Shown piece by piece: positions 1,414-56,253 of a stretch of 64,000 nucleotides of DNA; position 1 is the stretch's first letter; every line of letters begins with the position of its first letter. Both the position numbers and the translations under genes were made by a program. The notes beneath the pieces were generated by a model. It saw only the letters and a list, made by a program, of their open reading frames with translations, had not been told where the DNA came from and did no database searches. Source of the stretch: a virus; the IMG/VR virus record IMGVR_UViG_3300021602_000003, positions 102,257 through 166,256 of that record. One strand, written 5' to 3'.

Positions 1414-2481
1414 ATGATATTTGCACTATTAACTTTATTCTCTGCTTTATCGCTTGCAGCGGTAGCTGGCTGGTTCTCTATAGTAGGTATTATGTCTATT
1501 TATGCAGGTGCGCCAATGCACGCCGCATTTGTAATGGGTGTAGTTTTAGAGTTCGCTAAATTAGTTACAGTAAGTTGGATATATAGGAATTGGCCCGAAG
1601 CTAAATGGAAATTGCGAGGCCCCCTTATATATTCCATCGCTGCACTAATGCTAATAACAAGCATTTCCGTATTTGGCTTTTTAACGAAAAGCCATTTAGA
1701 ACAAGGTGCTGCTACCATAGATAATTCTGCTAAGGTAGAAAGATTAGACCAGCAGATAGCAAGAGAAAAATCTGTTATAGCGGATGATGAAAAAGTTATC
1801 ACACAGTTAGATACAACAGTTAATTCTTATCTAGGTAAAGATAATGCAGATAGGGCGGTAGTAATACGCCGTTCACAAGCTTCGCAGCGTAAACAATTGC
1901 GCGGAGATATAGAATCTGCTCACAAAAAGATAGATGGATATAGTGACGAGAAGTTTAAATTACAATCCGAAGTTAGAGCACTTAAATTAGAAGTTGGCCC
2001 CATTAGGTATATTGCCGAGTTATTTTATAGTAGCAGTGGCGATGAAACTAAAAATATTGAAGCGGCAGTAAAATTATTTACATTACTGATTGTATCGACA
2101 TTAGATCCTTTAGCAGTTATACTATTAATTGCCGCTAACCATACCTTACTGCGACTCCAAAATGAGAAAAGTAAAAAGAAAGAAACGGATCCGGTTGATG
2201 GGCCGCAAATTACTATCCCCGATGACAAAGAGCAAGTTGAAGACTCTCCGCATATCGAAGAAAGCAGGAGCAGCGAACCCGACCAGCGTGTGGATTTTTC
2301 TGGAATACCTCTTCATGCAGTCGAAGAAGAAGCCAAGATACATGATTCAGTACCTGAAGAAATTGTGGAATTATTAGATAATAGAATAGAAAAATCAGAC
2401 GAAGTTAAACATACTCCAAAAAAGTATCCCACCGCGTTGAGTTGGTTGGCAGAATTTAGAAAGTCAAAAAATAATGGATAA
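1414..2481 (+). CDS. Membrane protein with cytoplasmic coiled coil
   Basis: 355 residues. Hydrophobic segments lie near residues 1-25, 33-52, 70-92 and 217-243. A charged, probable coiled-coil region spans about 105-195 between the third and fourth. The C-terminal 100 residues are acidic and polar. Start ATG 1414 directly follows a late-type GATAAATA element without a ribosome site. The end overlaps clpX by eight bases. Similar membrane-coil-membrane proteins occur in T4-like phages; function is unknown. Late expression suggests a role in assembly or lysis, which is inference. Confidence 0.75.
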   Translation: MIFALLTLFSALSLAAVAGWFSIVGIMSIYAGAPMHAAFVMGVVLEFAKLVTVSWIYRNWPEAKWKLRGPLIYSIAALMLITSISVFGFLTKSHLEQGAATIDNSAKVERLDQQIAREKSVIADDEKVITQLDTTVNSYLGKDNADRAVVIRRSQASQRKQLRGDIESAHKKIDGYSDEKFKLQSEVRALKLEVGPIRYIAELFYSSSGDETKNIEAAVKLFTLLIVSTLDPLAVILLIAANHTLLRLQNEKSKKKETDPVDGPQITIPDDKEQVEDSPHIEESRSSEPDQRVDFSGIPLHAVEEEAKIHDSVPEEIVELLDNRIEKSDEVKHTPKKYPTALSWLAEFRKSKNNG

Positions 2482-3709
2482 TATCGAAAATAAAATAATT
2501 AGGAAGATCGTCAATTGTTCTTATTGTGGAAAGGGGAGACACGAAGTAGAACAAATGGTAGAAGGACCGGAGTTCGGTGGAAAGATTATTTATATATGCA
2601 ACGAATGCGTAGATGTTACATATAATACAATACATACCGAAGAAGTAGATGTTATAAAGAAGAAAAAAGAAAAAATATTAATTCCTGAAGAAATTAAAAA
2701 ATTCTTGGATGAATATATTATAGGTCAAGATAATGCCAAGATTGCTATATCTGTGGCTGTCTATAATCATTATAAACGAATCAATAATAAATCTAAGACA
2801 GAATTAGAAAAATCCAATCTACTAATGATTGGTGAATCGGGATGCGGGAAGACACTTCTTGTAAAAACAGTAGCCAAATTATTCGACTTACCTTGCGTTA
2901 TAGCAGATGCCACAACATTAACCGAAGCAGGATACGTAGGTGAGGATGTTCAAAATTTAATAAGCCTCCTTATACAAAACGCCGGGGATGATGTAGACAG
3001 GGCTCGTACAGGCATTATATTCATAGACGAAATAGATAAAAAGAGTCGTAAGAGCGAATCTGCTGTAACTGGACGAGATGTATCCGGCGAAGGCGTGCAA
3101 CAGGCATTGTTAAAATTAATAGAAGGCTCAGTTATAAAGATAGAAGATGGGTATGACGAACCTATCGATTTCGATACGAAAGATATATTGTTTGTATGTA
3201 GCGGAGCATTTGTAGGGTTAGACGAAGTTGTTCGAAAGAATAGATCCAAGACAGGAATAGGTATCGGTGCAAACATAAGTACAAGATCATCTTTTTCTGA
3301 AACAATTAAAGATATACGATCCGATGACCTAATTAAATATGGCCTTATTCCTGAATTTGTAGGCAGATGTCCTGTTACTGTTGTTTTTGATGATCTTACC
3401 GCAGATATATTGGTTAAGATATTGAAAGAGCCTAAGAACAGTATAGTTGAACAATTTAAGGCGTTATTCAAATACGAAGGGGTTTCTTTAGACTTCGATG
3501 ATAAATACCTACAGAATGTAGCTGATAATTCTTTGAAGCAAAAGATAGGTGCACGTGGGTTACGAGCAATAATGGAGAAGGATCTTCAGGCTACACAATT
3601 TGTACTTCCGAAATTAGCAAAAAACGGCGTCAACAAAATATTTGTAGATGCGAATGGAACAATTAAACATGTATACAAGGCAGCAAAAAGAGCAAAAAAT
3701 GAGCAGTAA
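2474..3709 (+). CDS. clpX: ATP-dependent unfoldase ClpX
   Basis: 411 residues, close to bacterial ClpX (about 420). An N-terminal zinc-binding domain has Cys15, 18, 42 and 45. Walker A is GESGCGKT (120-127), the pore loop GYVG (153-156), Walker B IIFIDEIDK (181-189) and sensor 2 GARGLR. ClpX unfolds tagged substrates and feeds them to ClpP. The ClpP-docking loop, IGF in Escherichia coli, reads IGI (262-264). The phage has its own ClpP at 13452, so this could be a matched pair. It overlaps both neighbours (membrane protein and bS21), suggesting one operon. Confidence 0.97.
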   Translation: MDNIENKIIRKIVNCSYCGKGRHEVEQMVEGPEFGGKIIYICNECVDVTYNTIHTEEVDVIKKKKEKILIPEEIKKFLDEYIIGQDNAKIAISVAVYNHYKRINNKSKTELEKSNLLMIGESGCGKTLLVKTVAKLFDLPCVIADATTLTEAGYVGEDVQNLISLLIQNAGDDVDRARTGIIFIDEIDKKSRKSESAVTGRDVSGEGVQQALLKLIEGSVIKIEDGYDEPIDFDTKDILFVCSGAFVGLDEVVRKNRSKTGIGIGANISTRSSFSETIKDIRSDDLIKYGLIPEFVGRCPVTVVFDDLTADILVKILKEPKNSIVEQFKALFKYEGVSLDFDDKYLQNVADNSLKQKIGARGLRAIMEKDLQATQFVLPKLAKNGVNKIFVDANGTIKHVYKAAKRAKNEQ

Positions 3710-4085: not shown

Positions 4086-4496
4086 ATGTCAAGAAATGAT
4101 TTCACACGGCTATTCGATCAATTAGATTCTCTTACTGTTGGCTTTGGTCCAGTGTTTAGAGACTTCCAGGTTCCTACAAATAACTATCCTCCGCACAACA
4201 TTGTTAAAATTTCTGACAATGAATTTTATCTTGAATTAGCAGTAGCTGGATTTAAGAAGGATGAAATGAAGATGGAAGAACACCAGGGTCTGTTAACAAT
4301 TACTGGAGACAAGAATGTCGATCCAGATTCGGCCTACCAGTATAGAGGTATTGCAGGTCGTTCATTCTCGAAGAGCTTCCGTATCGCTGAATATTTTGAA
4401 GTAAATGCAGCATCTATGGAAGATGGCATCTTAACAGTTAACTTTGTTAAGAATGCACCAGAAGAAGCCAAACCTAAGTTGATTGCAATCAAATAA
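4086..4496 (+). CDS. hsp20: Small heat shock protein (Hsp20/IbpA family)
   Basis: 136 residues with an alpha-crystallin domain from about residue 37 to 127: FYLELAVAGFKKDEMK, LLTITGDK and the DGILTVNF strand. It holds unfolding proteins in solution without ATP. Strong ribosome site (AAAGGAG) and a structured leader upstream. Hsp20 genes are common in T4-like phages of aquatic bacteria. Here it lies between clpX/bS21 and clpS, in a protein quality-control cluster. Confidence 0.93.
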   Translation: MSRNDFTRLFDQLDSLTVGFGPVFRDFQVPTNNYPPHNIVKISDNEFYLELAVAGFKKDEMKMEEHQGLLTITGDKNVDPDSAYQYRGIAGRSFSKSFRIAEYFEVNAASMEDGILTVNFVKNAPEEAKPKLIAIK

Positions 4497-4531: not shown

Positions 4532-4549
4532 TATATTACATATTTGGGG
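4515..4549 (+). promoter_or_regulatory. 16-bp hairpin covering the clpS ribosome-binding site
   Basis: CCCCGG-ATATGTAATA, loop ATA, TATTACATAT-TTGGGG. It is a 10-bp perfect inverted repeat extended by two G-U pairs and four C-G pairs. The closing GGGG (4546-4549) is the only purine-rich ribosome-site candidate for the clpS ATG at 4556. In read-through RNA from hsp20 it would be buried, which suggests translational control. Confidence 0.6.
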
Positions 4550-4555
4550 TCACAT

Positions 4556-4861
4556 ATGACAGAAACAGACGTTATTGAAAAAATCGAGGAATCTACCGAT
4601 ATAAAGATTCCTAAGATGTACAAAGTGTTATTGCATAATGACAATACCACTACGGCGGATTTTGTTGTTGCTGTCCTTCTACGTATCTTTCATAGAACGT
4701 TAGAAGATTCTATGCTTGTAACACAAGAAGTTCATGAGAATGGTATAGGTATTGCCGGCTCGCCCTACACACACGAAGTGGCTAATGAGAAGGTTGTAGA
4801 AACTACTAGTTTCTCCAGATTAAATAATTTTCCTCTAGTAACCACATTAGAAGAAATTTAA
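4556..4861 (+). CDS. clpS: N-degron adaptor ClpS
   Basis: 101 residues; start ATG 4556 preferred over the in-frame TTG at 4544, which lies in the hairpin. The ClpS core begins at residue 21 (MYKVLLHND). The alpha-amine ligands Asn28 and Asp29 and His60 (EVH) are present. ClpS delivers proteins with bulky N-terminal residues to ClpA, which is also encoded here (31763). The pocket gate residue, Met40 in Escherichia coli, aligns with Ala34. In the E. coli protein a Met-to-Ala change there is known to widen specificity to beta-branched residues, so this adaptor may accept Ile or Val. That last step is inference. Confidence 0.95.
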   Translation: MTETDVIEKIEESTDIKIPKMYKVLLHNDNTTTADFVVAVLLRIFHRTLEDSMLVTQEVHENGIGIAGSPYTHEVANEKVVETTSFSRLNNFPLVTTLEEI

Positions 4862-12757: not shown

Positions 12758-13147
12758 TTATTGCCCGTTATTGTTACGGGCAGCATCCATCGTTTGTGCT
12801 GTAAGCATCTTAGATGGATTAGGTTCATATCTTTGAACCTTATGATTATAAGGCAAACCTGCAGCAGCAAGAGCATATTGCAATCCGCGGTAACCCGGGG
12901 ATTGTAGTTTGCTTTCTTTAGGCACGTTTGTATATTCGGGCTGTGATTTAGTTACAGGTTTCATGAATACAGGAACAACACCTTCGCTGAACCATTCTTT
13001 GAAGTACTCGTCGTAATATTTGGCATTCTTTTTCTGATATTTGACTACTTCGGGATTGTAGAATTTTTCGTAATCTTTACCAGCTTCTTTATAAAAACGG
13101 GCAACAACATCGGTAGGTGATTCTAAGAGTAAGTCTTTAAATTTCAT
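12758..13147 (-). CDS. Putative internal head protein with capsid-targeting N-terminus
   Basis: 129 residues from the ATG at 13147. The N-terminus MKFKDLLLES resembles the T4 capsid-targeting peptide (MKTYQEFIAE type), with an L-x-E cleavage site for a gp21-like protease after Glu9. GATAAATA lies five bases upstream on the minus strand, with no ribosome site, so the message is probably leaderless. The body is basic and aromatic (Y/K rich), with no known domain. Two other minus-strand genes (54132 and 55849) share this N-terminus and promoter layout. Confidence 0.7.
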   Translation of the reverse strand: MKFKDLLLESPTDVVARFYKEAGKDYEKFYNPEVVKYQKKNAKYYDEYFKEWFSEGVVPVFMKPVTKSQPEYTNVPKESKLQSPGYRGLQYALAAAGLPYNHKVQRYEPNPSKMLTAQTMDAARNNNGQ

Positions 13148-13451: not shown

Positions 13452-14042
13452 ATGGCACATTTTTGGCCGACAGTCGTTGAAACATCATCTAAGGGTGAAA
13501 GAGCATATGATCTAGCAAGCAGATTAATGCGAGAACGAGTTATTTTCCTTAACGGAGAAGTGACAGATCAAATGTCTGAGATAGCAGTAGCGCAATTGTT
13601 ATTCTTGGAGGCAGAAAACCCGGAGCAAGATATTCATGTATATATCAATAGCCCCGGAGGAAGTGTTACAGCAGGTTTAGCAATTACGGACCTATTTGAA
13701 TATGTAAAACCTGATATTTGTACCTATGTGACAGGTCAGGCAGCAAGCATGGGTTCTTTGTTTCTTGCAGCCGGCGCCAAAGGTAAACGATACTCATTAC
13801 CTAATGCTACTATTATGATTCATCAAGTATTATCGGGATATAGTGGTCAAGCTTCAGATATCGAACTTCATACAAACGAAACACTGTATCTAAAGCGCAA
13901 ACTCAACAAGATGTTATCAGATTTTACTTACGGTAAAACGGATTATGATACAATGGTTACGTTGACAGATCGAGATAATTTCTTAAGGCCGGAGAAGGCA
14001 TTAGAAATCGGTCTTATCGATCATATTATTTCCAAAAGGTAA
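13452..14042 (+). CDS. clpP: ATP-dependent Clp protease proteolytic subunit ClpP
   Basis: 196 residues, standard ClpP length. The catalytic triad is complete: Ser99 (GQAASMGS), His124 (MIHQ) and Asp175 (DRDNF). The oxyanion INSPGGSV segment is at 65-72. ClpP forms a barrel of two heptamers and degrades proteins threaded in by ClpX or ClpA, both encoded in this window. Ribosome site AAAGGA, own promoter at 13383. The N-terminus has a short propeptide-like segment ([18 protein letters not shown]), as in bacterial ClpP. Confidence 0.97.
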
Positions 14043-22621: not shown

Positions 22622-22805
22622 TATCACAAAAGTGTGGGAAAAAGACGGAAAACTATATGGCAGGACCGCACCAGGTAGGCCCTTTCAAATTTATAATCTT
22701 CAGTGTACACTTGAATCTATTTTAGAGTATGATTTCAGCAATGTGGTAGAAGGTCGTGAATTAGTTAAACAATATATCAAGTCAGAGGATACAAATGCGA
22801 ATTAA
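22611..22805 (+). CDS. Unknown small phage protein
   Basis: 64 residues from ATG 22611, with GGGG six bases upstream; an earlier in-frame start at 22584 lies deep in the previous gene. No motif. Overlaps the co-chaperonin by 11 bases. Confidence 0.65.
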   Translation: MENNITKVWEKDGKLYGRTAPGRPFQIYNLQCTLESILEYDFSNVVEGRELVKQYIKSEDTNAN

Positions 22806-23139
22806 AGCATTAAAAGGTAAAGTACTGGTAACAGATTTAGAACGCGGTTCTAGACTTATAAATGGAATTATTATTCCTGATGATAATGGTAAGAGCGAAG
22901 GCATTCGCCCTCGCTGGGGCCGAGTATATTCGATTGGTGAAGGTATCGATGAAATTTCTGTTGGACAATGGATATTGGTCGAGAATGGTCGCTGGACTCG
23001 CATGTTAAAGATAAGAGAAGACGATGGCACTTATATACAGGTATGGGGTGTAGAATGGCCTAAATCTGTTATGCTTGTATCGGACGAAGATCCTGATATG
23101 AATATATTTTCTGAATTTACTACATCACACGCATTTTAG
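22795..23139 (+). CDS. GroES-like co-chaperonin (gp31-type)
   Basis: 114 residues, near the size of T4 gp31 (111). The fold pattern fits a Cpn10: IKALKGKVLVTD at the start, a mobile-loop region ending in NGIIIPDD (GroES has GGIVL), RWGRVYSIGEGIDEISVGQWILVENG, and a MLVSDED ending. T4 gp31 replaces GroES so that host GroEL can fold the major capsid protein. That role is likely here. It overlaps the preceding gene and is followed by a terminator-like hairpin. Confidence 0.82.
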   Translation: MRIKALKGKVLVTDLERGSRLINGIIIPDDNGKSEGIRPRWGRVYSIGEGIDEISVGQWILVENGRWTRMLKIREDDGTYIQVWGVEWPKSVMLVSDEDPDMNIFSEFTTSHAF

Positions 23140-30815: not shown

Positions 30816-30934
30816 TGAAACTATTCTTAGAAATAGTTGCGGTAATATTTTTACCTGTAGAGATAGTTTATTCCTGGATAGAGCACTTTACTTTAAAGAT
30901 CTTCTCTAGAAAAAATAAGAAATATTTAAGATGA
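30815..30934 (+). CDS. Very small hydrophobic protein
   Basis: 39 residues. Its ATG overlaps the IF-1 stop (TAATG) and its TGA overlaps the dnaJ start (ATGA), which argues for translation. Hydrophobic residues 3-20, basic C-terminus (KIFSRKNKKYLR). Probably membrane-associated; function unknown. Confidence 0.6.
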   Translation: MKLFLEIVAVIFLPVEIVYSWIEHFTLKIFSRKNKKYLR

Positions 30935-31755
30935 GTAAAAGGGATTATTATACAGTCCTAGGGGTCGAGCGTTCTGCAACACCCGAAGATTTAAAAACAA
31001 AATACAGGCAACTGGCAAGTAAGTATCATCCCGATAAAATTACTGGTGCCGATGGTTCGCCCGAAAAACTGACTGCCGAAGCTAACTTCAAGGAAGTTAA
31101 AGAGGCATACGAAATTCTTGCCGATGTCGAGAAGCGTCGACAGTACGATATACACGGTCACGAAGGTCTGTCTGGTGGAAATGCACAGCAATGGGCGCAT
31201 GGCGCAACTAACCACCAAAATGTCGAAGACATGCTCAAATCATTCTTCGGTACTGGTGCATCGTTCGACCCCTATAGTGGTACTCAGCGCCGCCAACAAA
31301 TAACTGTTATAAATATTTCATTAGCAGATGCTTACTCGGGTAAGGTAATTAGGGTTGATTCGTCAGTTACTTTGACTATTCCTAGAGGAGTACGATCCGG
31401 TACACGATTCTTTGCCGATAATAAATTATACCGTATTGATGTTCAGCCTCATTATAAATTTAAGAGGGCGAACGACGACTTATTAGTCGACGTAAATATT
31501 AATTCTGCTGAAGCTGCACTGGGCGTGGCGGCTATACTCGACCACATAGACGGTGCTAAACTACAGTTTACAATACCTGCAGGTATTCAGCCCGGACAAA
31601 TAGTTAAATTAGCAGGTAAGGGTATGAATAATCCAGAGATAGATAGACAGGGCGATATCTTGGTTAGGATCAGTATTAATATTCCTAAAAATTTAAGTGA
31701 TGCAGAGAAGGACATTATGAAGTCTTTGAATCACAGAGAATCTATAAATATTTAA
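30931..31755 (+). CDS. DnaJ/CbpA-type J-domain co-chaperone
   Basis: 274 residues. J domain at 1-70 with HPD at 33-35 and the DYYTVLGVERSA start. A G-rich linker follows; there is no Cys-rich zinc domain, so it is a CbpA-like type B protein. C-terminal substrate-binding domains have TLTIPRGVRSGTRF and FTIPAGIQPGQIVKLAGKG. It would stimulate host DnaK. It lies directly before clpA, in one operon with IF-1. Confidence 0.95.
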   Translation: MSKRDYYTVLGVERSATPEDLKTKYRQLASKYHPDKITGADGSPEKLTAEANFKEVKEAYEILADVEKRRQYDIHGHEGLSGGNAQQWAHGATNHQNVEDMLKSFFGTGASFDPYSGTQRRQQITVINISLADAYSGKVIRVDSSVTLTIPRGVRSGTRFFADNKLYRIDVQPHYKFKRANDDLLVDVNINSAEAALGVAAILDHIDGAKLQFTIPAGIQPGQIVKLAGKGMNNPEIDRQGDILVRISINIPKNLSDAEKDIMKSLNHRESINI

Positions 31756-31762
31756 GGTAAAC

Positions 31763-33979
31763 ATGACTAAAAAAGTAGAAAAGATGATCGAGAGAGCAGT
31801 GACTCTCGCTAATGACAATAATCACGAATATGTAACCTTAGAACATATGCTATTATCTCTGTTGCATGAGAAAGAAGTCAACGAACTTATACTTGCAGTA
31901 GGCGGACAACCGGCTAAGATTAAGGCCGAAACTGTCCAATTTTTGGGTGATCCTGCACTAAAGAAACCTGATGCACTCAAAGATGTGCCGGCAAAGCGTA
32001 CATCAGTATTAAATCGCACGTTTCAACGTGCATTAACTCAAGTAATATTTTCGGGTCGCAGAGAGTTGACCAACGAAGGTATTCTACTAAGTATCCTTAG
32101 TGAGGAAACTAGTCATGCATTCTATTACTTAGGTAAACACGGTGTTACCAGAGAAAAGATTATGGGACAACTGCGTAAGTCGGAAGAAAAGCAAGGACCT
32201 AATGAGACTTTCTTAGATCAATATGCACGTAATCTGAATAAGGAAGCTACTGACGGATCTATCGATCCTGTAATCGGTAGAGAAAAAGAAGTTATGGATA
32301 CTATCGAAATTCTTGCTAGACGCAGAAAGAATAACGTAGTTTATGTGGGCGAACCCGGTGTTGGAAAGACAGCACTTGCTGAAGGACTTGCATTAAAAAT
32401 TGTTAATAAAGAAGTGCCTAAAGCATTACAGAACAAAGTAGTATATAGTTTAGATGTTGGCGCATTGATCGCTGGCACAAAATTCCGTGGAGACTTTGAA
32501 GAACGTCTTAAAGGTGTTTTAGAGCAAGTTAAGAAAATGGGCAACTGCATTATGTTCATTGATGAAATTCATATGATCTTAGGTGCGGGCGCCGCAGGTG
32601 GTGGTCAAATGGATGCAGGCAATTTGTTGAAACCTATGCTTGCCAAAGGACAATTAACTTGTGTAGGTGCGACTACGTACGACGAGTTCCATCAACACTT
32701 TGAGAAAGACAAAGCATTGCTTCGTCGCTTCCAAAAATATGATATTGAACAACCGTCCGCACTAGAGACTAAATTAATTCTTAAAGGCATTGCTTACCAA
32801 TACGAAAAGTTCCATGGCGTTACTTTCGAGGAAGGTGCTACAGATATGTGTGTAGATTTAGCTGACCGATATCTGAAGTCGAAGTTCTTTCCTGACAAGG
32901 CAATCGATATTATGGATTCGGCTGGCGCGATAACTAAACTGATGGATCAAACAGTCGTTACCATCGATACCATTGTGCAGCAGGCGGCAAAGATTGCACA
33001 TATGCCTGTTGATATGATTGATATGAAAGAGAATACTTCACTCGAGAATCTTGCTCCACGTATGAAGGACAAGGTATATGAACAAGATGAAGCAATTGAT
33101 AAATTAGTCGAAGCTATTTTTATGTCTAAGGCAGGATTACGAAATCCATCTAAGCCCATCGGTAGTTTCTTGTTTACTGGCCCAACAGGAACTGGTAAGA
33201 CTTATACGGCCAGTAAACTTGCCGAAACATTGGGTGTACATTTTGCTAGATTTGATATGTCCGAGTATATGGAAAAGCATACTGTATCTAAATTTATTGG
33301 AGCGCCTCCCGGGTACGTAGGACACGGCGAAGGTAAGATGGGTGAGGGACAACTAATCCAGACGATTGATACACATCCTAACTGTGTATTACTGTTAGAT
33401 GAAATTGAGAAGGCTAATCCGGACGTTCTTAGTGTATTATTACAAGTTATGGATGCCGGGCGGCTTACTTCGTCTAAAGGTAAGACAATTGATTTTTCAA
33501 ATGTGATAATTATTATGTCGGCCAACCTGGGCGCTGCTGAAGCTGAAAGGCTAAAGATAGGGTTTGGAAGTCAGGACAACGAAGGTGCAGTGGACTCGGA
33601 GATTAAAAAGTTCTTTGCTCCAGAGTTTAGAAACAGACTGGATGCTATTGTAAAGTTTAACAAACTGACCATGGCTGGTATGAACTTGATTGTTAATGCA
33701 GAAGTAGAAAAGGTGGATGCAATGCTCTCCCCTAAAAACATCAGCATTAATGTAACACAACAAGCTCGCGACTGGTTAGCTAAAAATGGATATGATCCTA
33801 AATTTGGTGCAAGACCATTCGAAAGACTGTTCGAAGAGAAAGTTAAGAAACCACTTTCTAAGGAAATATTGTTTGGCAAACTTAAAAACGGTGGCCGAGC
33901 AAATATTGATTATAATATTATTTCCGATGTATTAATTATAGATGTTACATCATCTGTAATGGAAGAAATATTAAACTAA
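31763..33979 (+). CDS. clpA: ATP-dependent unfoldase ClpA
   Basis: 738 residues (E. coli ClpA 758). An N-domain (1-145) is followed by two AAA+ modules: D1 with GEPGVGKT (196-203) and D2 with GPTGTGKT (about 473-480), plus GYVG pore loops. The ClpP-docking tripeptide is IGF at 599-601 (IGL in E. coli). There is no long middle domain, so it is ClpA rather than ClpB. The ClpS adaptor (4556) and ClpP (13452) are in the window. It is the last gene of its operon, followed by a terminator. Confidence 0.96.
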
Positions 33980-54116: not shown

Positions 54117-54140
54117 TAAGACCTTCGGGTCTTACCTTTT
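54115..54140 (+). terminator. Bidirectional terminator between convergent genes
   Basis: GTAAGACC, loop TTCG, GGTCTTAC, then CTTTT on the plus strand. It overlaps the last codons of the minus-strand gene at 54132. Confidence 0.8.
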
Positions 54141-54374
54141 ATACGGTATAATATCCACTCTAAGACGTGGATTCTTATTATGCAGAGAGGTTGCAGATTT
54201 CAGTGCAGCTTCTTCTGATTCAAAATCTTTCCAGTGTTTACCATTTATAAAGACTGAATAAGTAGGTATCATTTTGGGACGGCTAGGTTCCCACTGACCG
54301 TTAGCCTTGTCGAATTCGGCATTATATCGGGTCTGCTCTAATCTGTTTTCTCGGATTAATTCTTGTAATTTCAT
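54132..54374 (-). CDS. Putative internal head protein with capsid-targeting N-terminus
   Basis: 80 residues. MKLQELIREN at the start fits the T4 capsid-targeting peptide, with I-x-E before Asn10. The rest (YSVFINGKHWKDFESEEAALKS...LRVDIIPYKR) is a small beta/alpha domain. The late element AGATAAATA lies seven bases upstream on the minus strand. No ribosome site. See 12758 and 55849 for the same layout. Confidence 0.7.
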   Translation of the reverse strand: MKLQELIRENRLEQTRYNAEFDKANGQWEPSRPKMIPTYSVFINGKHWKDFESEEAALKSATSLHNKNPRLRVDIIPYKR

Positions 54375-54458: not shown

Positions 54459-54749
54459 ATGGCGAGACCAAAACCCACCGTACTTTTAGAGAACGTTAAC
54501 AAACAATATAAGGCAGAGCAAGTACTTGAAGCCGAAGCAATCTACGCTGTATTCTACCAAGAAAAGCCCATAAACTTAAGAACACTTAGCCATCTCATAT
54601 CCTATCCTGGTCCAAAATATAAAAAGTGTGCATTTTCCAACAAGGGACATTGTTTCAATCTTGCTGAAAGATTAAATAAGATGTTTAAGACTTCTGATTT
54701 TAGTGTGGTTGCTCTCACACAAGGCACAATTATTACCGAAAATGATTAA
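54459..54749 (+). CDS. Small conserved T4-like phage protein
   Basis: 96 residues from ATG 54459 (GGAG upstream). The MARPKPTVLLENVNKQ start and YPGPKYKKCAFSNKGHCFNLAERLNK segment mark a conserved T4-like phage family of unknown function. Tail to tail with the minus-strand endonuclease. Confidence 0.75.
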   Translation: MARPKPTVLLENVNKQYKAEQVLEAEAIYAVFYQEKPINLRTLSHLISYPGPKYKKCAFSNKGHCFNLAERLNKMFKTSDFSVVALTQGTIITEND

Positions 54750-55795
54750 GCTCTCCCAGCCCAATACTTTTCTGGTTTAATTTCATTCAATAGAATATTT
54801 CGTTCTTTAAGAAAGTTTCGTTTAGATTCGTCTATTTCGAAACTTTCTTTTATTGTCACCTTACAATTTTTCCAAGGAGTAGAAGGGCGATTTCCTTTTT
54901 CTAATACTTCTTTTTCTGTATAGTGAAACGGGCCATGATATTCCAATACTTCGATGATATGATTTATGTCACCACGAAAGCCTGTCTCGAATACAGTTAA
55001 GTCAAACATATTCCACCTACCATCAAAGTATGTCCCCCATTCATATAGATTTATTTCTTTATCTGTATATGCTACTTGACCGACATTATAATTTTTATCT
55101 TTAATATATTGACGAATATAGAGTGTTGCTTCCATACTACTATTTTTAAATGTTCTATTACCACCTTCTTTAATTCGGGTTGCAACACCTCGTGCTGCAA
55201 CTTCTGGAAGTTGCATCGCATACTCAACACCATATTTTTTCATATTTGTATCTTTCCTACGAATTTCGATGCCTGGTATATTCCACACCTTATCGACACC
55301 ATATGTGGCCTGCAATGTATCTTTCCTCTTCTTTAGAATAACAGCTTGGTCATTCTTTTTGTATGTGGCTAAGGATCTGGCCCTTAGTTCTGTATTCTGT
55401 AAAGGAAATTCAGATCCATATCTTTCTATCATAGTGATTCGTCTCTTATCACGAATTTTTATATTCCCAAGAGTATTTTCGCACCCATATTTTTCTAAAT
55501 TAGTTCCTTTTCTCTTAACTGTTCCGCATCCGTTTTTCACGTAACATTTATGAGAACAATATTCACCGTATCCTGCGGTTCTGTCTGTATATTTTAATTC
55601 TTTAGTGCAGCATTTACAGGCGGGACGGATATCTAATTGGTGTAACAACAAATATAATGCCTCGGCGTAACTATATTTAGACTCTGATAATTGTTTATCA
55701 ATTTCAGGAAACTGATTCTTGATGTGTTTCCTATATGCCATATAGGATGTATTTTCTTCTAATATTTTGTTAATTGATAAAATAATATTCTGCAT
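54746..55795 (-). CDS. Homing endonuclease-like protein (paralogue of the 17380 gene)
   Basis: 349 residues. N-terminal helical part, a Cys-rich zinc site (CKCCTKEL...CSHKC, about 60-83), repeats of the KYGCENT / RYGSEFP / TYGVDKV type, then the same C-terminal domain as the 17380 protein (LYEWGTY...MFDLTVFE, EVLEYHGPFHY). Start ATG 55795 lies four bases after a minus-strand GATAAATA without ribosome site, so this one is probably leaderless too. Confidence 0.78.
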   Translation of the reverse strand: MQNIILSINKILEENTSYMAYRKHIKNQFPEIDKQLSESKYSYAEALYLLLHQLDIRPACKCCTKELKYTDRTAGYGEYCSHKCYVKNGCGTVKRKGTNLEKYGCENTLGNIKIRDKRRITMIERYGSEFPLQNTELRARSLATYKKNDQAVILKKRKDTLQATYGVDKVWNIPGIEIRRKDTNMKKYGVEYAMQLPEVAARGVATRIKEGGNRTFKNSSMEATLYIRQYIKDKNYNVGQVAYTDKEINLYEWGTYFDGRWNMFDLTVFETGFRGDINHIIEVLEYHGPFHYTEKEVLEKGNRPSTPWKNCKVTIKESFEIDESKRNFLKERNILLNEIKPEKYWAGRA

Positions 55796-55848: not shown

Positions 55849-56223
55849 TTAAGGGATAGAACTCATAAAGCAGTCGGGGTATTTTTCTGCGAATTTACGC
55901 ATAATTATCCCGGCAAGTGCATTAGCTTCATTTTCTACATCGCTACCGTCTTCGCCATCCATCTCGTCACCTGCTAACTGTTGTTTCCAATGTGTTAGTT
56001 CATGAGCAAGTGTTCGCATGACATCCAATGGGTGTCTACCTTTTGTAATTACCTTAACATGGTTTCCATTGAACTCACCGAAAGATTTCTTATCTCCAGA
56101 TTCAATAAAGGATTGATTACTTATGAGATGGATGTGTGGCAATTCATTTATACCTAATTCCTCTTTACAAAGCTGAATTAAGTGAGATATTGCAGGTTCT
56201 AATATAGCTTCTTTAATCTTCAT
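55849..56223 (-). CDS. Zinc metallopeptidase with capsid-targeting-like N-terminus
   Basis: 124 residues from ATG 56223. HELTH at 74-78 is a gluzincin-type HExxH, followed by an acidic stretch (DEMDGEDGSDVENEANALAG) that could supply the third ligand. The N-terminus MKIKEAILEP matches the T4 capsid-targeting type with I-x-E at 7-9; Pro10 after the site may slow cleavage. If real, the peptidase is packaged in the head and injected with DNA. Leaderless late promoter at 56229. Confidence 0.78.
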   Translation of the reverse strand: MKIKEAILEPAISHLIQLCKEELGINELPHIHLISNQSFIESGDKKSFGEFNGNHVKVITKGRHPLDVMRTLAHELTHWKQQLAGDEMDGEDGSDVENEANALAGIIMRKFAEKYPDCFMSSIP

Positions 56224-56224
56224 A

Positions 56225-56253
56225 TTGCTATTTATCTTATCTTGTGTTATAAT
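56225..56253 (+). promoter_or_regulatory. Sigma70-like promoter, leaderless arrangement
   Basis: TTGCTA, 17 bases, TATAAT, ending five bases before ATG 56259. It overlaps the divergent late promoter, so early and late transcription would exclude each other. Confidence 0.6.
56229..56236 (-). promoter_or_regulatory. T4-type late promoter (minus strand), leaderless arrangement
   Basis: GATAAATA on the minus strand, five bases before the peptidase start. It overlaps the spacer of the plus-strand sigma70 promoter at 56225. Confidence 0.65.

Follow-up and report, generated by a model that had tools for sequence, protein, structure and literature searches.

The window, i.e. the whole stretch of 64,000 nucleotides that was analyzed, comprises bases 102257-166256 of a 166,256-base IMG/VR virus record, which is a fragment and comes from a T4-like freshwater phage. 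T4-type genes distinguished within the record encode terminase (identified with a profile) as well as sheath-like and tube-like proteins (recognized by reading). Genes for gp21 and a full gp23 are absent from this incomplete record. A gp21-family prohead protease is encoded by Synechococcus phages B23 and S-SRM01 and by the relative G001 (210 kb), where an S77 (gp21-family) protease is accompanied by a full gp23.

The gene under study encodes a protein of 124 aa, the translation of which includes the segments MKIKEAILEPAISHLIQLCKEELG...RTLAHELTHWKQ...GSDVENEANALAGIIMRKF... (Table 1). An alternative start in the same open frame would give 145 aa, but the shorter form is favoured, because the late-promoter box and the start are conserved in relatives. 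Removal of the nine-residue N-terminal peptide MKIKEAILE would leave exactly 115 residues, beginning with Pro10. The coordinates, the HELTH motif and the 115-residue domain given in the first-pass annotation are all correct; the strand (minus) had been omitted.

Table 1. Features distinguished in the window (coordinates refer to the window; ↓, candidate cleavage position)
Feature	Position	Strand	Remarks
Predicted metallopeptidase ORF	55849..56223	-	124 aa; ATG at 56223, stop ends at 55849
GATAAATA, T4-type late-promoter box	56229..56236	-	first base 13 nt upstream of ATG
N-terminal capsid-targeting-like peptide MKIKEAILE	56197..56223	-	residues 1-9; candidate prohead-protease sites IKE5↓A, ILE9↓P
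HELTH motif, predicted zinc-binding/catalytic	55990..56004	-	residues 74-78
E97 (ENEAN), predicted third zinc ligand	55933..55935	-	following helix; invariant in 64 members
DUF7487 protein	54746-55795	-	349 aa; own late promoter
Neighbouring late gene	54132..54374	-	similar N-terminus MKLQELIREN; homologue close to metallopeptidase gene in G001
Late gene	12758..13147	-	129 aa; CTS-like N-terminus MKFKDLLLES
Candidate head cargo, late gene	36291	+	307 aa; targeting-like N-terminus MRILEILLPKG
ClpX-like AAA + ClpX zinc finger (Pfam)	2474-3709		
Hsp20 (Pfam)	4086-4496		
ClpS (Pfam)	4544-4861		1.7e-20
ClpP (Pfam)	13452-14042		3.1e-67
Cpn10-like (Pfam)	22795-23139		
DnaJ (Pfam)	30931-31755		
ClpA-like (Pfam)	31763-33979		Clp_N + two AAA regions

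The adjacent gene for a DUF7487 protein looks like an inserted gene, separating the metallopeptidase gene from a neighbour pair that sits closer in G001 (L038). The window also carries an unusually full set of protein-quality genes. In the same phage, the region L014:14377-15816 matched PHROG 850 ("RNA-binding protein") over its full length (E 2e-152).

The T4 late box is TATAAATA, and GATAAATA is a variant of it. This variant occurs 52 times in the record, and 39 of the 52 copies sit 8-60 nt upstream of an ATG-initiated ORF, compared with 22.7% for other permutations of its letters (p=3e-15). The sheath-like and tube-like genes are preceded by the box, which is also kept at the same place before the metallopeptidase starts in loci L001-L005 and L040-L044. 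Examples of such sites in the window are 56236(-), 13160(-), 55807(-), 36279(+) and 1402(+). For about a dozen genes the spacing between GATAAATA and the ATG clusters at 12-16 nt which, given the T4 late start-site geometry, would mean near-leaderless late mRNAs.

In gluzincins the HExxH helix is followed by a Glu on the next helix. HExxH as the sole evidence for a peptidase was rejected, since the motif is present in 6 of the 246 ORFs of the 166-kb record. The ORF stands above such chance occurrences because of its invariant H74, E75, H78 and E97, purifying selection and a confident zincin-type model. In an alignment of 64 members, R63, D67, R70 and R109 are likewise invariant, and comparison with a 94%-identical copy gave dN 0.037 versus dS 0.184 (dN/dS about 0.2). 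The AlphaFold (AF2) model (pLDDT 84.5, pTM 0.81) places HExxH in helix 65-83 and E97 in helix 95-114, the arrangement seen in gluzincins. A Foldseek search against the PDB returned zero matches below E=0.001; the best match (prob 1.00) was the minigluzincin zymogen abylysin (4jiu), with the lowest E value of 7.9e-3 and TM 0.49-0.56, followed by SPRTN and jannalysin (4jix). The minigluzincins and SPRTN resemble the model of the window protein in having a minimal zincin fold of ~105-124 aa with an HExxH helix and a following helix, but they show 12-18% identity and no significant sequence match, and they are archaeal or eukaryotic rather than viral.

Profile matches obtained with the single sequence were sub-threshold (Tox-MPTase3, E 0.0078; M78, E 0.015). 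PHROG 87 ("metallo-protease") was matched by 35 of the 64 members (best 1.3e-6), Peptidase_M78 weakly by 22 of the 64 at E<0.01 (best 8.9e-5), and the top BFVD matches carry the name IrrE-like. The HExxH...ExEAN-like layout is shared with Peptidase_M78 (ImmA/IrrE), but the window protein falls under the curated Pfam cut-off (15.6 vs 22 bits) and the M78/IrrE assignment was rejected, as were Tox-MPTase3 and the Hvo_1808 family (E 0.0066), also under their cut-offs. Matches to large clostridial toxins (PDB sequences, E 0.03-1.4) are confined to residues 18-62, a segment that does not include the active site; they were attributed to chance. On the strength of its predicted fold and invariant residues, the window protein is very probably a zinc metallopeptidase.

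An alignment-based scan revealed at least 569 relatives in viral contigs, whereas 84,980 bacterial and archaeal genomes yielded 3 matches, two of them partial; the family is thus essentially viral. Cultured carriers found are Synechococcus phages B23 (gp332, starting MNYKQFLRES) and S-SRM01, and Flavobacterium phage immuto, in which the homologue (28% identity) lies within a 907-aa protein.

The packaging of T4 internal proteins is directed by their first ten residues, with the targeting information mainly in residues 4 and 7; processing needs residues 8 and 10, and Asp10 stops cutting but not targeting (PMC9026906). The capsid-targeting-like peptide proposed in the first-pass annotation also exceeds chance expectation: a strict CTS motif, defined as an M[KR]x2-4[FILA][ILVQ]xE start, was found at 5 of 39 late-promoter starts and 1 of 285 other starts of this phage (Fisher p=1e-4). 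A looser N-terminal motif is present in 49 of 87 stand-alone members, compared with 141 of the 711 remaining ORFs in these loci (p=3e-12); this p-value, like the others for the family and the junctions, was calculated with loci filtered at 60-70% identity and then counted as independent. The targeting-like N-terminus is absent from the S-SRM01-type clade. Further candidates for head cargo, encoded by late genes with such N-termini, are located at L014:17541 (+; MKLFELLLEK, 76 aa), L015:11223 (+; MKISEIITEG, with HTH-like repeats) and L014:12330 (+; MRLSEIQLTES, with a CxxCxGxG zinc-finger-like motif). The peptide RMKQLAGI lies near [ILV]xE-like sites in two otherwise unlike proteins (L016:1051-2649 and L017:2820-3461) and might serve as a further signal for targeting or processing.

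A caveat raised earlier, the Pro following the cleavage site, holds for the clade of the window protein, which has Glu-Pro at the second site (EP is also found in L001-L004 and L040), while in the close relatives L043/L044 the Glu at this site is replaced by D/Q. Across the family P1' is mostly Ser/Gly (33/53), and the alternative upstream site IKE↓A conforms to the prohead-protease rule. The prohead-protease cut may instead fall at IKE↓A, or not happen; by T4 precedent, targeting without cutting could still work.

In some relatives the metallopeptidase domain is fused to other domains: CTP_transf_like (NMNAT-like), a common partner, PolyA_pol, HD, NT5C, DUF5661, DUF6321 and PGDYG (multidomain relatives include L059, L071 and L195). 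Of 38 non-redundant members whose N-terminal extension is long, 25 contain [ILV]xE↓[SGAN] ~60-86 residues before HExxH (background windows, 12.9%; p=5e-14); among 35 with C-terminal extensions, 19 contain it after the domain, versus 10.5% (p=2e-10). The maximum reached in shuffles was 12 on the N side and 10 on the C side, and the peak was absent from the N-side fusions when Lys, Asp or Gln was swapped for Glu. The motif is not one inherited column, since its distance to the domain varies. A conserved NPxIFE end supplies part of the C-side signal; 14 of the 35 remain without it. In L059, LHE187↓S188 lies in a low-confidence linker of the model, joining the NMNAT-like and metallopeptidase domains, and the candidate maturation site of G001 gp23, YLAE↓SATAG, has the same form. 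We regard these putative junction sites as the strongest evidence for head targeting.

NMNAT-like proteins were detected in virions of S-CBWM1, S-SZBM1, S-SCSM1 and S-CREM2, with the authors' caveat that co-purification of highly expressed proteins is possible (PMC10665884, PMC9602691). The record of the S-SCSM1 NMNAT labels it a "virion protein", and the protein has the N-terminus MKSFLQFLKEA; its homologues in P-SSM2 and S-SM2 start with MKSFSQFLTE and MKSFFQFLSE, respectively. Virion proteins of this NMNAT/cytidylyltransferase type (S-SCSM1 ORF91, S-CREM2 ORF154) are a different enzyme from the window protein and the S-SCSM1 one is devoid of a metallopeptidase domain, although its N-terminal peptide is of the same class. 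In S-SRM01, the metallopeptidase gene is immediately upstream of the NMNAT gene. Comparison of the strict motif with the MS data of S-SCSM1 (1/48 vs 1/234, p=0.31) had no power, because the NMNAT is the only clear strict-motif protein there; a distant IrrE-like protein of this phage is without the virion-protein flag. The partnership with NMNAT associates the metallopeptidase with a packaged-protein class, but is not proof of packaging.

T4 internal proteins IPI-IPIII and Alt carry, like the window protein, a short N-terminal peptide ending at a gp21-type [IL]xE site, and they share late expression and presumed ejection with DNA, as proposed for the window protein. Of these, IPI counters restriction, and Alt is an enzyme that modifies the host (PMC9026906). 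The window protein differs from them in its payload, a predicted zinc protease, in the P1' Pro of its clade, and in that its packaging is putative. The zincins of polyvalent proteins (Iyer et al. 2017, PMC5512222) have the same HExxH and next-helix Glu as this family, and are joined to diverse effector domains in presumably packaged phage proteins, which resembles the family fusions. Unlike them, members of the family often stand alone with a CTS-like peptide, in T4-like phages, and their fusion junctions resemble prohead-protease sites rather than sites of autoprocessing; the window protein, being single-domain, is not itself a polyvalent protein. By analogy, its mode of action is most likely that of a T4 internal protein with a metallopeptidase of the polyvalent type as its payload.

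The first-pass proposal of a head-packaged zinc metallopeptidase is partly borne out: fold and invariant residues support the peptidase well, and comparison does the same for packaging (late promoter, N-terminus, fusion sites and partners). The attack on host defence or envelope proteins that it envisaged is speculative, and the analysis lent no support to an envelope target. We consider packaging probable, but the protein might instead be a late cytosolic zinc protease whose N-terminal likeness is incidental to its first helix. The helical N-terminus of the model, the S-SRM01 clade devoid of the motif and the Pro at P1' are compatible with that; however, the motif is found repeatedly, both at N-termini and, at varying distance from the domain, at the two junctions of fusions, and the same N-terminus is found on other late genes of the phage that lack a metallopeptidase domain, so we judge a purely cytosolic role to be a minor possibility. 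It is also rather unlikely that the enzyme is packaged but acts within the prohead or the virion itself, either as an accessory protease of maturation that cuts other internal proteins or in self-processing of its own polyproteins. Late expression and the targeting-like N-terminus would fit such a role, and polyvalent-protein metallopeptidases were proposed to process their own carrier proteins (PMC5512222), but many members are stand-alone, with no partner for processing, and the junctions conform to the prohead-protease rule, as does the candidate gp23 site of the relative, and therefore another protease already explains the cuts.

The small internal proteins of T4 are without known enzymatic activity and IPI is an inhibitor (PMC9026906), which would agree with a packaged but inactive zincin fold that binds DNA or fills the core, or that acts as a binder or inhibitor. 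Invariance of all the predicted zinc ligands and the catalytic Glu in 64 diverged members would be unexpected for a pseudoenzyme, which makes this improbable. An early ImmA/IrrE-like protease, expressed from the phage genome and cleaving a repressor, could account for the weak Peptidase_M78 matches and the IrrE-like BFVD names, but the missed Pfam cut-off and the late promoter argue against it and we find it very hard to credit.

On balance, we lean towards a late, minigluzincin-type zinc endopeptidase that is carried in the head and directed at the host. The gene would be transcribed late in infection from the GATAAATA promoter, and the N-terminal peptide would draw the protein into the core of the prohead, in the manner of T4 internal proteins. 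A gp21-type prohead protease may then trim it after IKE5 or ILE9, or the peptide may stay uncut. We infer that the ~13-kDa enzyme would leave the head with the DNA and, as an active peptidase, would cut a small number of host proteins, perhaps just one, within the first few minutes; a regulator or a defence protein is the most plausible target. Phages other than this one would make the domain within larger proteins, often together with an NMNAT-like domain, from which the prohead protease would then free it.

We know of no T4-type capsid-targeted protease described before, and of few phage internal head proteins with known activity. The family described here is common among uncultured phages from aquatic habitats, and bacterial genomes almost entirely lack it. 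We tentatively suggest that T4-like aquatic phages might possess a modular cargo system, in which a targeting N-terminus or bracketing sites lead to head loading and excision, and that the minigluzincin could be a common module of it, often delivered along with an NAD-metabolism (NMNAT-like) one, which would disarm the host early. Bracketing by prohead-protease-type sites may provide a sequence rule with which the cargo injected by T4-like phages could be catalogued.
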